From the NCBI GenBank assembly GCA_024401555.1, contig JAKSKV010000029.1, positions 1 to 40,071 of the forward strand: a DNA stretch of 40,071 nt, read 5' to 3'. The stretch is from Paludibacteraceae bacterium (GTDB taxonomy: Bacteria; Bacteroidota; Bacteroidia; Bacteroidales; Paludibacteraceae). The notes under the pieces are model-generated. The model saw nothing but the letters and a program-made list of their open reading frames with translations, was not told where the DNA came from and ran no database searches. A program made the translations under genes and the position numbers. Below are positions 34,514-39,731 of this stretch, piece after piece (within the stretch, counting starts at the first letter, position 1; every line of letters begins with the position of its first letter).

Positions 34514-35248
34514 ATGTTACACAACCGTTGGTTTAAATTGTCATTGGTTATTCTGGTGCTGGCCTATTGGGTCTTCGCATTGAAGATGTACGCCTATAAG
34601 TCGGACGAATTGGTGTGCCAAAAAATTGACGTGACGGTGAGTGACAGCCACTTGATGAAATTCGTGAAACCAAGCGATGTCGTGGATTTGTTAAAGGAAT
34701 CTTCCATGAACATTGAAGGCAATCGTATGGATAGGATCGACACGGACAGTATCGAGAACTATTTGAAGAAACAGTCGCGTATCAAGACCGCAGAGTGTTA
34801 CATCTCTCCAGACGGATGTCTGAGGGTGAAGGTGACGCAAAGAGAGCCGATCTTGCGGGTGATGAGCGCGTTTGGAAACTACTACATCGATTATGAGTTG
34901 AAGAAGATGGCGGTGTCCTCCTCCTTCTCCGCTTATGTACCTGTGGCGACAGGATATGTCAGCGAAGGCATGGCGAAGGGAGCGTTGGGCGAGTTTGCGC
35001 TCTTCCTCCGCAACAATTTCTTCTGGAATAGTCTGATCGAGCAGATTGATGTGGATAAGAATGGCGAGGTGACTTTGGTGCCTCGCGTGGGCAACCAATT
35101 GATTTTGATGGGTACATTGGATAACTATCAAGAGAAGTTGGAGAAGCTCCGTGCCCTTTACGAGGAGGGATTTAATAAAGTCGGATGGAATAAATACAAG
35201 CAGATCACTTTGAAATATGATGGGCAGGTGGTTTGTACCAAAAAATAG
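34514..35248 (+). CDS. ftsQ: Cell division protein FtsQ
   Basis: This 244-residue bitopic protein has a short cytosolic end, a transmembrane helix (about 7-24) and a periplasmic part. The periplasmic part starts with a POTRA-like domain (about 45-115, including KTAECYISPDGCLRVKVTQREPILR) and continues with the FtsQ beta domain (GNYYIDYELKKMAVSS). FtsQ recruits FtsL and partners to the septum. An AAGGAG lies eight bases before the ATG. Position between murC and ftsA is standard. Confidence 0.93.
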   Translation: MLHNRWFKLSLVILVLAYWVFALKMYAYKSDELVCQKIDVTVSDSHLMKFVKPSDVVDLLKESSMNIEGNRMDRIDTDSIENYLKKQSRIKTAECYISPDGCLRVKVTQREPILRVMSAFGNYYIDYELKKMAVSSSFSAYVPVATGYVSEGMAKGALGEFALFLRNNFFWNSLIEQIDVDKNGEVTLVPRVGNQLILMGTLDNYQEKLEKLRALYEEGFNKVGWNKYKQITLKYDGQVVCTKK

Positions 35249-35274
35249 AAGAGGTTAAAATAGAGGACGAAAAT

Positions 35275-36642
35275 ATGAACGAACTGACGGAAATGACAGA
35301 GAACAATTATTCCAACATCGTGGTAGCGATCGATTTGGGAAGTCGTAACATTCGCAGCATGATCGCCCGTAAGGGAGAAGATGGCAGATTGGAGGTGCTA
35401 TTTGCGAAGAAAACCACTTCCGTGGGCATTGAGAACGGTATTGTGATCAATGTGGACGAGGTCTCCTTCCAAATAAAAAAAATCATCCAGGAGTTACGCA
35501 ATTTCGTGAATAATCTATTGAAGAACGAGAAAGAACCCAATGTGGTCTATGATATCCAAAAGGTTTATGTCGGTCTTCATGGAAAGTCGATACATGGTGA
35601 TTTGAACGAAATCTCACGATCTTTCGGTTCGAAAATCACGTTCCAAGATATGGAAATGGTCGAGGCGGAGAATCGCCGTATGACATTGTCTCCAGGTCGT
35701 AGGATTGTGGATGTCATTCCGTTCGATTACATCATCGATCAAGAGTCTTCTGTGGATAACCCCATAGGATGTGTCTGCCAGAATCTGCGTTCCCGTTTCT
35801 TGAATGTCAGCGCGGATAATAGGGTGGAGGATAACTTGAGGAGATGCTTCGAAAATGTGAACGAGAGCGTCTGCAAAGATCCGTCGGTAAATGTCTCTTG
35901 TGAACCTATGTTCGTCCTTCACTCCCGTTATATGGCGGACGCTGTCTTGTCTCAAGAACAAAAGGAGGTGGGATGTATGCTCCTCGATTTTGGTGCGCAG
36001 ACCATTTCCATGTCCATCTATCATGAGAAGAAATTGCGCTACCTTCACGTCTTCAACTTCGGTAGCGATACCATCACGAAGGATATCGCCTCTATGCAAT
36101 TGCCATGGGATGTGTCCGAAAAGTTAAAACGTAGCTTCGGTAGTGCCATGCCAGGTTTGGCCTCTCCCGTCATTGTGGATTTGCCTAATGGACGTCAGTT
36201 GGATAGCAATATATTGTGCAATACGATTGAATCGCGCATGAGGGATATCATGCAACGTGTCAACGCCGCGATTGACCTCTCCGGATATCGTTCGGTGTTA
36301 GACTCCATTGTCTTGGTCGGTGGTGGCGCAAACTTGAAACATCTGATTGAGTTTGTGGAAACCGAGACCGGTATTACTTGCCGTTTCGGAGACATCAGGG
36401 TGTTAGCTCAAAATACAGACGCGAAGTATGCCGCCATTGATAATGCCTCCATTATGGGTATCATGATGGCGGCGGAGACGGGTTCCGTTGTCTCTATCAA
36501 GAAGGAGGAGACTGTTGCGCAACCTGCAGTAAAGCCTAAGAATAAAGTCAAAAAGAATCCGATGAAATCCCTTATCAGTCTTTTCGGCAATATCGGAGAA
36601 AACATTGGAAATGTCTTTGACGATCCAGATGATAAAGAGTGA
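35275..36642 (+). CDS. ftsA: Cell division protein FtsA
   Basis: FtsA is the actin-like ATPase that tethers FtsZ filaments to the membrane. From the ATG at 35275 it is 455 residues, with AIDLGSRNIRSMIA (phosphate 1), the SHS2-type 1C domain, CMLLDFGAQTISMSIY (phosphate 2) and SIVLVGGGANLKHL (adenosine motif). The C-terminal residues KSLISLFGNIGENIGNVF form the amphipathic membrane-targeting helix. The frame is open upstream to a TTG at 35233 inside ftsQ, but the ATG start fits the family. Confidence 0.95.
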   Translation: MNELTEMTENNYSNIVVAIDLGSRNIRSMIARKGEDGRLEVLFAKKTTSVGIENGIVINVDEVSFQIKKIIQELRNFVNNLLKNEKEPNVVYDIQKVYVGLHGKSIHGDLNEISRSFGSKITFQDMEMVEAENRRMTLSPGRRIVDVIPFDYIIDQESSVDNPIGCVCQNLRSRFLNVSADNRVEDNLRRCFENVNESVCKDPSVNVSCEPMFVLHSRYMADAVLSQEQKEVGCMLLDFGAQTISMSIYHEKKLRYLHVFNFGSDTITKDIASMQLPWDVSEKLKRSFGSAMPGLASPVIVDLPNGRQLDSNILCNTIESRMRDIMQRVNAAIDLSGYRSVLDSIVLVGGGANLKHLIEFVETETGITCRFGDIRVLAQNTDAKYAAIDNASIMGIMMAAETGSVVSIKKEETVAQPAVKPKNKVKKNPMKSLISLFGNIGENIGNVFDDPDDKE

Positions 36643-36687: not shown

Positions 36688-38028
36688 ATGAACGAGAACC
36701 AATTTTCAGAGGCAGATCTCAACGAGGAGATTGAGCAGCAAGATCAACCGATCATCAAGGTGATTGGTGTAGGTGGTTGCGGTGGAAACGCTGTCAACTA
36801 TATGTACAACATGGGTATCAAGGATGTGAACTTTGTTGTCTGCAATACGGATAAACAAGATTTGCGCAAATCGCCTGTCCCTACCAAAATCCAATTGGGA
36901 GAAAAGGGCTTGGGTGCTGGCTGTATCCCTGAGGTGGGCCTTCAAGAGGCTCAAAAATCCATGGATAAGATCCAGGAGATGTTGGACGACAACACCGAAA
37001 TGGTTTTCGTCGCTGCCGGAATGGGTGGTGGAACGGGAACAGGTGCCGCTCCGCTCATTGCGAAGACTGCTAAGGAGAAGGGAATCTTGACAGTGGCTAT
37101 CGTTACCATTCCTTCAAACTTTGAGGGAGACGAGAAGGTGAGACAAGCGTTGTTGGGTGTGGAGGAGATGAAGAAGAGCGTGGATGCGATTCTTGTCATC
37201 AATTCCCAAAAAATCCTTGATATGTATGGTGATCTATTCTTGGACGACGCCTATGCGAAGGGCGATGAGATTTTGGCGACAGCCGCAAAGGGCATCGCGG
37301 AGATCATTACACTTTCAGGTCGTATGAACATAGATATGGCCGATGTCCGCACGGTGATGACGGACAGTGGCGATGCGATCATGGGTGCCGCTAAGGCGAG
37401 CGGTACGGATCGTGCGATTGAGGCGATCCAAAAGGCTTTGGAGTCTCCATTGTTGGTGAGCACTAACCTTTCTGGTGCCAAGAATATTCTTTTGAACATC
37501 ACACACGGTAAGGAGAAGAAGATCACTACCAGTGAGGTGACGATTATCCGTGACCATTTGCAGAAGCAAATTGATGGAAGCACTAGAATCATCTGGGGTG
37601 TGATGTTGGATGAGACCTTGGATGAGGAGTTGGGCGTGACCATCGTGGCGACTGGTTTTGATTTTACAGGTAGCAAGAAAGCTGTTCCGCAGGTGGATTT
37701 CAACCAACCAACGCAGGTGGCGTCCGCTCAGGTGGCGCAACCTGTCAATCCGAATGTTATGCCTGATACCCACAATGTCTATTATGGCTCGCAGAACTCC
37801 ACTCCAGGTTCCGCAGGACGACAAAATTACGGTGCGCCAGCTGCTCAACCAGCTGTTCCACATGTGAAATTGGATATGGATGAGGATGAATTAGCCGCCC
37901 CTTCCTTTACGGTGAATGGTGTACAATATGATACGCAAATTCGTCCGACCCAGACCTCCACGCTTGATATGGATGATCCGAACGGGTACAACTCCCGAAA
38001 CGGTTTCTTGCATAATAACGTAGATTAA
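36688..38028 (+). CDS. ftsZ: Cell division GTPase FtsZ (canonical copy)
   Basis: FtsZ is the tubulin-like GTPase that forms the division ring. The 446-residue protein has GVGGCGGNAV, the GTP signature GGGTGTG (113-119) and the synergy-loop catalytic motif NIDMAD (N214, D216, D219). A C-terminal linker rich in Gln, Pro and Ala follows, then LDMDEDELAAPSF and a terminal stretch ending NGFLHNNVD. The ATG at 36688 is preferred to an in-frame TTG at 36664. All catalytic motifs are intact, so this should be the main division FtsZ. Confidence 0.97.
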   Translation: MNENQFSEADLNEEIEQQDQPIIKVIGVGGCGGNAVNYMYNMGIKDVNFVVCNTDKQDLRKSPVPTKIQLGEKGLGAGCIPEVGLQEAQKSMDKIQEMLDDNTEMVFVAAGMGGGTGTGAAPLIAKTAKEKGILTVAIVTIPSNFEGDEKVRQALLGVEEMKKSVDAILVINSQKILDMYGDLFLDDAYAKGDEILATAAKGIAEIITLSGRMNIDMADVRTVMTDSGDAIMGAAKASGTDRAIEAIQKALESPLLVSTNLSGAKNILLNITHGKEKKITTSEVTIIRDHLQKQIDGSTRIIWGVMLDETLDEELGVTIVATGFDFTGSKKAVPQVDFNQPTQVASAQVAQPVNPNVMPDTHNVYYGSQNSTPGSAGRQNYGAPAAQPAVPHVKLDMDEDELAAPSFTVNGVQYDTQIRPTQTSTLDMDDPNGYNSRNGFLHNNVD

Positions 38029-38051: not shown

Positions 38052-39191
38052 ATGCCCGACTTAATAATAAATCCAGTTCTGACAGAGTATCCACCAATCG
38101 TTAAGATTGTTGGCGTAGGAGGCTGTGGCGGTAACATCGCCAAGCATGTTTACGAGTCTGGGGTGGAAGGCGTCTCATTTGCTGTATGCAATACCGACCG
38201 GAAGGCCTTGTTCAATTCGCCGATCACCCGCAAGGTTGAAATGGGTGTGTTGGGTGCTGGCGGTGATCCGGAGAAGGGTTTGGAGAGTGCCCAGGAGGCG
38301 AAAGATGAAATACAATCCCTCTTTGACGATGGAACGGAAATGGTATTCGTCACGGCTGGACTGGGAAAGGGCACAGGTACAGGCGCAGCTCCGTTTGTGG
38401 CGCAAGTTGCGAAGGCAAGGGGCGTCTTGACGGTTGGCTTTGTCTGTTTGCCCCCTGACATTGAGGGTGAGGAGAAGATGGCATTGGCGAAGGAGGGTAT
38501 GGAGAGGATAAAAAACAACTCCGATGCTATCGTTGTGGTGGATACGCAACGCATATTCGATCTTTATGATGACCTTCCCATAGAGGCCTCTTTCGACAAG
38601 GCGGATGATATCATGTCGGATGCCGCAAAGGCAATGGCGGACATCGTCAACAAGAGTGGACGCATCAATATAGATATGGCGGATGTGCGGGCTGTGTTGA
38701 AGGATAGTGGTGATGTGGTCATGGCTTATGGAAAGGCCTCAGGAGATAACCGCGCGAAGGATGCTTTGGCATCGGCTTTGGATTCTCCGCTATTGCTTCA
38801 GTCCCATTTGGCAGGCGCAAAGGCGATGCTGCTGAATATTATGACATCCAGTTCCAAGCAACTTTTGACCAAGGAGTTGAATGAAATTGAAGATTGTTTG
38901 AGGAAGCAGAAGGGCGTTGATAAAAGCACCAAGTTGGTGATGGGCTTGATGATTGATGATTCGCTTGGTGAAGCGCTCAGCGTCACAATTGTGGCAACGG
39001 GCCTAAAACCCGAATTCGCAAGGAGACGAGTAACTTTGGACTCTTCTGAAATGGAACCCGTAGAGCCGTCTGTGGCGTCATCCGTAGAGAAGAAGGCTCC
39101 TACAATCTCAGTCGTGACGCAAACTTCTCCACGGGTCCCTGTGGTTCCTTTGGATATGGAAGAGGATGACGGTTACCGATATCCACATTGA
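38052..39191 (+). CDS. Second, divergent FtsZ paralogue
   Basis: The 379-residue protein is clearly homologous to FtsZ along the whole GTPase domain (GVGGCGGNIA, CNTDRKAL, NIDMADVRAVLKDSGD, LSVTIVATG), and roughly half its residues match the upstream ftsZ by eye. Differences are specific. The GTP signature reads GKGTGTG (105-111), with lysine replacing the second glycine. Two residues are missing before LGAGGDPEKG. The C-terminal tail stops at LDMEEDDGYRYPH, aligned with LDMDEDEL of the canonical copy, so the last 40 or so residues are absent. Catalytic N206, D208 and D211 remain. It could co-polymerise with or regulate FtsZ. The gene starts 23 bases after ftsZ and before yqeY. Confidence 0.93.
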   Translation: MPDLIINPVLTEYPPIVKIVGVGGCGGNIAKHVYESGVEGVSFAVCNTDRKALFNSPITRKVEMGVLGAGGDPEKGLESAQEAKDEIQSLFDDGTEMVFVTAGLGKGTGTGAAPFVAQVAKARGVLTVGFVCLPPDIEGEEKMALAKEGMERIKNNSDAIVVVDTQRIFDLYDDLPIEASFDKADDIMSDAAKAMADIVNKSGRINIDMADVRAVLKDSGDVVMAYGKASGDNRAKDALASALDSPLLLQSHLAGAKAMLLNIMTSSSKQLLTKELNEIEDCLRKQKGVDKSTKLVMGLMIDDSLGEALSVTIVATGLKPEFARRRVTLDSSEMEPVEPSVASSVEKKAPTISVVTQTSPRVPVVPLDMEEDDGYRYPH

Positions 39192-39224: not shown

Positions 39225-39674
39225 ATGGCATTATTCGATCAAATTAGTGAAGACATAAAGAAGGCGATGTTGGCCAGAGAGAAGGTGAAACTTGAGGCAC
39301 TTCGCGGTGTGAAAAAGGAGTTCTTGGAGGCTAAGACTGCCAAGAACGCTGAGGGTGAGTTGTCGGATGAGACAGCAGTTAAGATCCTCCAAAAGATGGT
39401 GAAGCAAAGAAAAGATTCCGCTGCGATCTTTACGGAACAAGGCCGTCCTGAATTGGCGGAGGGTGAGTTGGCGGAGGCTGCGGTCATCGAGGCCTATTTG
39501 CCAAAGCAAATGAGTGACGAGGAGTTGACTGCCGCTATCAAGGAGATCATTGCCGAGGTAGGCGCTACTTCCGCAAAGGAGATGGGCAAGGTGATGGGTG
39601 TAGCCACCAAGAAATTGGCTGGTAAGGCCGAGGGAAGATTGATTTCAGAGAAGGTGAAGACGTTGTTGGCTTAA
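39225..39674 (+). CDS. yqeY: GatB/YqeY domain protein
   Basis: The 149-residue protein is a YqeY-family helical domain related to the tail of the GatB amidotransferase subunit, which binds tRNA; its own role is not established. Supporting features are the LFDQISEDIKKAMLAREKVKLEALR start, KMVKQRKDSAAIFTEQGRPELAEGE, and EAYLPKQMSDEEL. It commonly follows ftsZ in Bacteroidota. The ATG at 39225 fits the family better than an upstream start at 39195. A strong terminator follows. Confidence 0.94.
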   Translation: MALFDQISEDIKKAMLAREKVKLEALRGVKKEFLEAKTAKNAEGELSDETAVKILQKMVKQRKDSAAIFTEQGRPELAEGELAEAAVIEAYLPKQMSDEELTAAIKEIIAEVGATSAKEMGKVMGVATKKLAGKAEGRLISEKVKTLLA

Positions 39675-39695: not shown

Positions 39696-39731
39696 AAAGC
39701 CGGAGTTTTGCGCTCCGGCTTTCTTTTTTTT
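39696..39731 (+). terminator. Rho-independent terminator closing the dcw run
   Basis: A perfect 10-bp stem (AAAGCCGGAG, 39696-39705, with CTCCGGCTTT, 39713-39722) has a seven-base loop and is followed by CTTTTTTTT. On the minus strand only a four-base T run follows, so it should act mainly on the plus strand while helping the convergent ATPase gene. Confidence 0.9.

Follow-up and report, generated by a model that had tools for sequence, protein, structure and literature searches.

Tandem ftsZ genes in the division operon of a Paludibacteraceae genus and their parallels across Bacteroidales

Second FtsZ proteins are already on record for some bacteria as well as for archaea and chloroplasts. 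Where plants and red algae co-assemble two FtsZs in one ring, it is the core region of the second that makes this ring more dynamic (PMC12343686), while Odinarchaeal FtsZ1 and FtsZ2 co-pellet and differ in membrane attachment (PMC12583498). A survey reports that where a bacterium has two ftsZ genes, which few do, the additional copy lies outside the dcw cluster (PMC9871819). Two-FtsZ rings have been studied mainly in chloroplasts and archaea, and a search of the open-licence literature found no report of tandem ftsZ genes in the Bacteroidales dcw cluster among the matches listed.

The window, a stretch of 40,071 nt of a Paludibacteraceae contig that was analysed as a whole, carries the gene order murC-ftsQ-ftsA-ftsZA-ftsZB-yqeY (Table 1). 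A preceding sequence-only reading had described a full-length FtsZ paralogue between canonical ftsZ and yqeY, and both the open reading frame and the gene order agree with this: ftsZ-B runs from an ATG to a TGA with no internal stop, and its ATG follows the stop codon of ftsZ-A by 23 nt. The two genes are probably expressed from one unit, and the hairpin 3' of yqeY, one of four consensus matches where shuffled sequences averaged 3.2, likely, if on weak evidence, marks the end of that unit. Judged by eye, the C-terminus of the window FtsA looks like an amphipathic membrane helix. The window genome (G000) also encodes a large Tubulin_2 protein (contig C97, L003 1-1713, minus strand; open frame of 1,096 aa), next to a gene whose product resembles, by eye, a von Willebrand-type protein, and similar weak Tubulin matches occur in G002, G003, G004, G013 and G014.

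Table 1. Features of the ftsZ-A/ftsZ-B locus in the window.
Feature	Position	Strand	Remark
ftsA, TTG-start ORF	35233..36642	+	name by gene order and sequence
ftsZ-A, canonical FtsZ, 446 aa, GGGTGTG at residues 113-119, tail ends NGFLHNNVD	36688..38028	+	
ftsZ-B, second FtsZ, 379 aa, Lys106 in T4 tubulin signature, short tail	38052..39191	+	
GKGTGTG codons and start of the following codon, altered tubulin signature (Lys106)	38364..38386	+	pattern match
yqeY, downstream of ftsZ-B; ATG start picked to match 149-aa orthologues	39225..39674	+	name by eye
Terminator-like hairpin, 11 pairs, then T run, 3' of yqeY	39696..39722	+	

By its sequence, FtsZ-B is an ordinary FtsZ. In Pfam it passed the cut-off for the Tubulin domain (114.6 bits) as well as for FtsZ_C (66.3 bits), it matched 49 distinct FtsZ sequences of the PDB at E <= 1e-20 (top sequence match 2vaw), and it was 51% identical to FtsZ-A over 300 core residues. 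Against the NCBIfam ftsZ equivalog TIGR00065 it scored 284.9 bits, slightly below the cut-off of 295.2, while FtsZ-A reached 344.3; this shortfall concerns its status as the cell's standard FtsZ, not its homology. An AlphaFold model of FtsZ-B based on 8 sequences was weak (mean pLDDT 60, pTM 0.59) and too poor for pocket geometry, and the best 50 Foldseek matches of this model were all FtsZ.

The tubulin signature of FtsZ-B reads G105-K106-G107-T108-G109-T110-G111 rather than GGGTGTG, and the lysine claimed for the second glycine thus stands at exactly position 106. The NIDMAD loop, said to be retained, is present at residues 206-211 as a T7 loop that satisfies NxDxxD; across the orthologues both aspartates are found in 9/9, while the asparagine is found in 4/9 and threonine in 5/9. 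FtsZ-B also retains the T1 glycine loop and Glu138, and Glu138 and Asp185 are invariant in eight aligned A and B proteins. A deletion of two residues near the GAGxxPE loop had been described, and this holds for the window species: compared with FtsZ-A, the window FtsZ-B is short of two residues in the loop before LGAG, and the other eight orthologues of only one. Altogether, 51 core alignment columns, three of them insertions or deletions, are fixed differently in 9/9 FtsZ-A and 9/9 FtsZ-B proteins, which points to lasting specialisation. The FtsZ-B changes fixed in 9/9 include T132C, I133L and N164D, at positions that, going by FtsZ structures, are presumably near the nucleotide pocket.

Lys106 was present in 9/9 FtsZ-B orthologues, and the DNA pattern for GKGTGTG was found in 6/295 genomes of the order sample and 17/300 of the family sample. 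The family carriers were the nine two-copy genomes of the window's genus, six genomes of genus g5, where the second gene of a tandem pair encodes the lysine, and two single genomes. In one of these, G068, the sole FtsZ found carries the lysine, is otherwise canonical and adjoins yqeY (assembly 62% complete); its genus g6 is mixed, as G020 has a tandem pair without Lys. In the other, G126 (L081), both tandem copies carry the Lys signature, both are long branches and neither has the standard GGGTGTG. Outside the family but within the order, the lysine was seen in the second tandem copy of G321 and G434, and in the sole FtsZ detected in each of G025, G418 and G515 (98-99% complete). When 101 FtsZs were placed on a quick tree that left out this column, the Lys state required 6 changes, of which well-supported branches force at least two, and Lys106 has probably arisen several times. 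Counted by genus, Lys occurred in 4/16 tandem genera vs at most 2/197 others (Fisher p = 3e-4, or 1e-4 with one on the single-copy side), a test in which genera are not independent and tandem genera were inspected more closely. As far as these sequences tell, Lys106 is recurrent, enriched in second copies and compatible with service as the only FtsZ. Its presence in the only-copy FtsZs of four genomes indicates that it is not a null mutation: Lys106 was rejected as a general mark of a dead GTPase, and it is not in itself a sign of altered function. A literature search on GKGTGTG yielded one unrelated paper only, among the matches listed, and a search on G106 of the tubulin signature found none.

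The genus was sampled with 16 genomes, the window's own included: nine carried a tandem pair, six had one FtsZ found and one had none above threshold. The window's gene order from murC to yqeY recurred in 9/9 two-copy genomes, with an A-B spacing of 4-20 nt by ORF ends, and four of the six single-copy genomes read ftsA-ftsZ-yqeY. Three named contigs with FtsZ-B orthologues are part of MAGs assigned to Paludibacteraceae, with horse faeces, sheep rumen and sample RUI231 as their sources. The remaining two single-copy genomes, G006 and G012 (L086, L087), each carry a lone, strongly diverged FtsZ on a long branch, with AMGGGTGTG and an acidic tail without the usual peptide; their neighbouring genes are also fast, yqeY was not found in the stretches examined, and the G006 gene sits at a contig end.

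An FtsZ tree built from 83 cores without the Lys column placed the nine A copies and the nine B copies of the genus in sister clades (100/95), with a long B stem (0.71). Cys25 (GVGGCGGN) was found in 18/18 A and B rows of the genus and in 0/65 other rows (one gapped there); R204 and M300 are also common to A and B of the genus, and each occurs in ~2% of other rows. A tree of FtsQ, FtsA and YqeY from 31 genomes, including 15/16 genus members, supported monophyly of the genus (97/98) and, within it, of the nine genomes with two copies (100/100). A single duplication on the stem leading to these nine accounts for both the sister A and B clades and the two-copy clade on neighbouring genes; on this sequence evidence, FtsZ-B originated once in the genus by tandem duplication. 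Two results fit poorly: genus members with one copy grouped with genus g4 in the FtsZ tree (98/87), and an AU test left the union of g1B with g5B unrejected (see below). The sequence-only reading had proposed that a separate clade with conserved Lys106 would support a distinct subfamily, and had named a recent, relaxed duplicate in one strain as the refuting case. The latter is not what was found, as the pair occupies 9/16 genomes that form one clade. The former stands in part: the clade exists, with its lysine throughout, yet it does not lie outside the genus's FtsZ-A, and FtsZ-B, being sister to that protein, is a genus-level paralogue and not an ancient subfamily.

Two other origins were considered and rejected. 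Recent import of ftsZ-B is contradicted by its composition (GC 0.50 and GC3 0.54, vs 0.49 and 0.55 for ftsZ-A) and by the sister position of A and B, and a single origin for all second copies in the family was rejected by the AU test (p = 0.012). Joining the second copies of the window's genus (g1B) with those of g5 (g5B) was not rejected (p = 0.128), and here a common origin is disfavoured by the free tree and by the shared residues. Lys106 is the sole near-unique residue shared by FtsZ-B and g5 second copies; the counts are small throughout, with two such residues common to FtsZ-B and the single-copy members of its genus, and one to FtsZ-B and each of g4, g5A and g36B. Within the FtsZ-B clade, the proteins of G005 and G007 (L062, L063) grouped with those of G000 and G008 (99/83), while neighbouring genes and FtsZ-A placed G005 and G007 with G009 (L065); to the latter, their FtsZ-B is 72% identical and their FtsZ-A core 99%.

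Of the 295 genomes in the order sample, 285 matched at E <= 1e-30, 259 of them just once, which bears out the earlier statement that most Bacteroidales have one ftsZ. The 26 genomes with two or more matches comprised, by reading, four with a gene split between contigs, four with a short dispersed copy, one with a copy on another contig and 17, the window's own included, with neighbouring copies. Tandem FtsZs were found in families f16, f23, f32, f69, f72, f85, f91 and f106 besides the window's; f32 and f69 include four genomes with three tandem FtsZs, and in f91 the second copy follows yqeY. A check for further ftsZ-ftsZ-yqeY loci had been suggested, and neighbouring copies indeed recur, in ~16/213 genera of the order and family samples, with g1 (the window's), g5, g6 and g36 as the family genera. 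In a class sample, 192/198 genomes came from other orders, and the 182 that matched at E <= 1e-40 did so once each. A further Bacteroidales genome, G756, has two FtsZs 147 kb apart. The dispersed paralogues at L107 2623-3381 and L109 2596-3261 (252 and 221 aa) have a GTPase domain without FtsZ_C, and similarly short frames of 228-270 aa in G379, G482 and G570 are candidate paralogues of this kind.

Upstream copies differed from last copies at the C-terminus. With a cut-off of 0.5, which was my own choice, a high C-terminal hydrophobic moment was seen outside the family in 11/20 upstream, 0/16 last and 3/11 only copies, and inside the family in 3/24, 0/24 and 0/27, respectively. Many upstream copies finish FtsA-like, e.g. 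NNWLKRKIGTLFSDEE. In L128-L142 and L072, which are tandem ftsZ operons from other Bacteroidales families, the tail of the upstream FtsZ frequently combines a basic stretch with an amphipathic helix like that of FtsA and an acidic end, a putative membrane-binding arrangement. A precedent for a direct membrane helix is Odinarchaeal FtsZ1, where it is N-terminal (PMC12583498).

Tails also vary within the genus. The window FtsZ-B had been described as truncated and ending at LDMEED, with about 40 further residues in the canonical copy; it continues for seven residues (DGYRYPH) and is nonetheless the shorter protein, as FtsZ-A has 46 residues beyond its LDMDED. It ends DMEEDDGYRYPH, and lacks the linker and FtsA-binding-type C-terminal peptide, in which respect the truncation is not general: FtsZ-B of the other eight species has a short linker and ends a few residues past PAYxR, a predicted FtsA-binding peptide. 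By sequence comparison, the PAYxR-type peptide is lost in the FtsZ-B of the window species, in which the FtsZ-A peptide is also degraded to AAPSFTV. In many Bacteroidales FtsZs a linker leads to an ExxPA[YF]xR-type peptide, which is followed by ~40 more residues and N-[YF]LHDNVD at the C-terminus, and others, e.g. those of genus g2, finish near an IPAWKRR peptide. FtsZ-A of the genus has the NVD-type end in 9/9 and the related peptide PSYQR in 7/9. Genera g5 and g36 partition these motifs differently, the first copy having neither and the second retaining the NVD-type end.

Selection was assessed by Nei-Gojobori dN/dS over eight pairs, with dS near saturation in several; FtsZ-B of G001 and G010 lacks the trimming motif and was aligned as a whole protein. 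Over the same eight pairs, dN/dS spanned 0.03-0.17 in the core of FtsZ-B and 0.008-0.053 in that of FtsZ-A, with 0.037-0.221 in FtsA and 0.057-0.171 in FtsQ. FtsZ-B thus evolves several-fold faster than FtsZ-A, which indicates weaker constraint, at a level estimated to be about equal to that of FtsA. With dN/dS well under 1 in 8/8 pairs and synteny conserved in 9/9 genomes, decay of ftsZ-B was ruled out, and the argument that the gene is functional is upheld. FtsA of the window clade is itself fast-evolving, with 60% identity between G000 and G008, whose FtsZ-A cores are 97% identical.

The GTPase sites of an FtsZ filament form between subunits, each site being completed by the T7 loop of the adjacent one. 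The tandem copies raise the possibility of division rings made of two different FtsZ subunits, and the likeliest role of FtsZ-B, though on an evenly balanced judgement, would be to co-assemble with FtsZ-A into the Z ring and alter filament dynamics. It would join FtsZ-A filaments and change nucleotide turnover, curvature or subunit exchange: its T7 loop would remain able to activate the hydrolysis of GTP bound by an adjacent FtsZ-A, while its own pocket, with Lys106 and the other fixed changes, would bind or hydrolyse GTP differently. In eight of nine species, the short linker ending in PAYxR would tie FtsZ-B closely to FtsA, and in the window species FtsZ-B would reach the ring only via FtsZ-A. 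Universal T7 aspartates beside a changed pocket fit a role inside FtsZ-A filaments, where FtsZ-B would alter turnover, and the same dcw position in 9/9, the low dN/dS, the 51 fixed columns and the consistent tail divergence in 8/9 also favour co-assembly. Weighing against it are the threonine in the T7 loop of five orthologues, the faster evolution of FtsZ-B, the six of 16 genomes found with one FtsZ, and the peptide lost in the window FtsZ-B and degraded in its FtsZ-A.

The combination of T7 aspartates in 9/9 with Lys106 in T4, T132C, I133L and N164D fixed in 9/9 would also suit a cap or damper that docks on FtsZ-A through its T7 face and whose altered pocket fails to support the next subunit, so that filament length is limited. 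This is unlikely, as a pocket with Lys apparently supports division in the four genomes with only-copy Lys FtsZs, and Glu138 and Asp185 are invariant in the eight aligned proteins. Archaeal and alphaproteobacterial FtsZ paralogues show that copies can diverge in role, and the 51 fixed differences could likewise reflect an FtsZ-B that serves cell shape or another constriction step in a structure unmixed with FtsZ-A; its place inside the division operon in 9/9 and the FtsZ-type C-terminal peptide kept in 8/9 orthologues make this improbable too. That FtsZ-B is a redundant or dosage copy heading for loss would agree with its faster evolution, the missing PAYxR in the window species and the 6/16 genomes found with one FtsZ, but is very unlikely given dN/dS well under 1 in 8/8 pairs, the absence of stops and retention in 9/9 of the two-copy clade, which is partly by definition since the clade is named by its two copies.

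Beyond the genus, a wider and more tentative proposal than co-assembly of FtsZ-B with FtsZ-A is that Bacteroidales repeatedly evolved Z rings of two, in some cases three, subunits by tandem duplication in the dcw cluster, with parallel GGG-to-GKG changes in second copies and divided anchoring, in which upstream copies outside the window's family would tend towards an FtsA-like helix and membrane tethering, and the last copy would usually keep the FtsA-binding peptide. Together with closely related single-copy genomes and several parallels of apparently independent origin, the tandem pair amounts to a natural experiment on how a one-component division filament could turn into a two-component one.

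Compared with bacterial FtsZ as represented by TIGR00065 and solved structures, FtsZ-B shares full-length homology and both Pfam domains, and differs in falling under the equivalog cut-off, in Lys106, in its short tail and in being a second copy. FtsZl/Tubulin_2 proteins (PMC2875224) belong to the same tubulin superfamily and are divergent, whereas ftsZ-B encodes an ordinary FtsZ. The additional bacterial ftsZ copies surveyed in PMC9871819 resemble ftsZ-B as second ftsZ genes, but that of the window lies inside the dcw cluster beside the first, which contradicts the published generalisation that extra bacterial copies sit outside it. Archaeal FtsZ1/FtsZ2 of Haloferax and Odinarchaeota are likewise two FtsZs with differing membrane attachment, from an ancient duplication, whereas the FtsZ-A/FtsZ-B pair is genus-level. 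Chloroplast FtsZ1/FtsZ2 (FtsZB/FtsZA in red algae) are also two diverged FtsZs, in one shared ring that is known there and presumed here; their origin is separate, while the Bacteroidales pair is tandem in the dcw operon and arose within one genus. The effect of the second chloroplast FtsZ on ring dynamics offers, by analogy only, a precedent for FtsZ-B tuning FtsZ-A.
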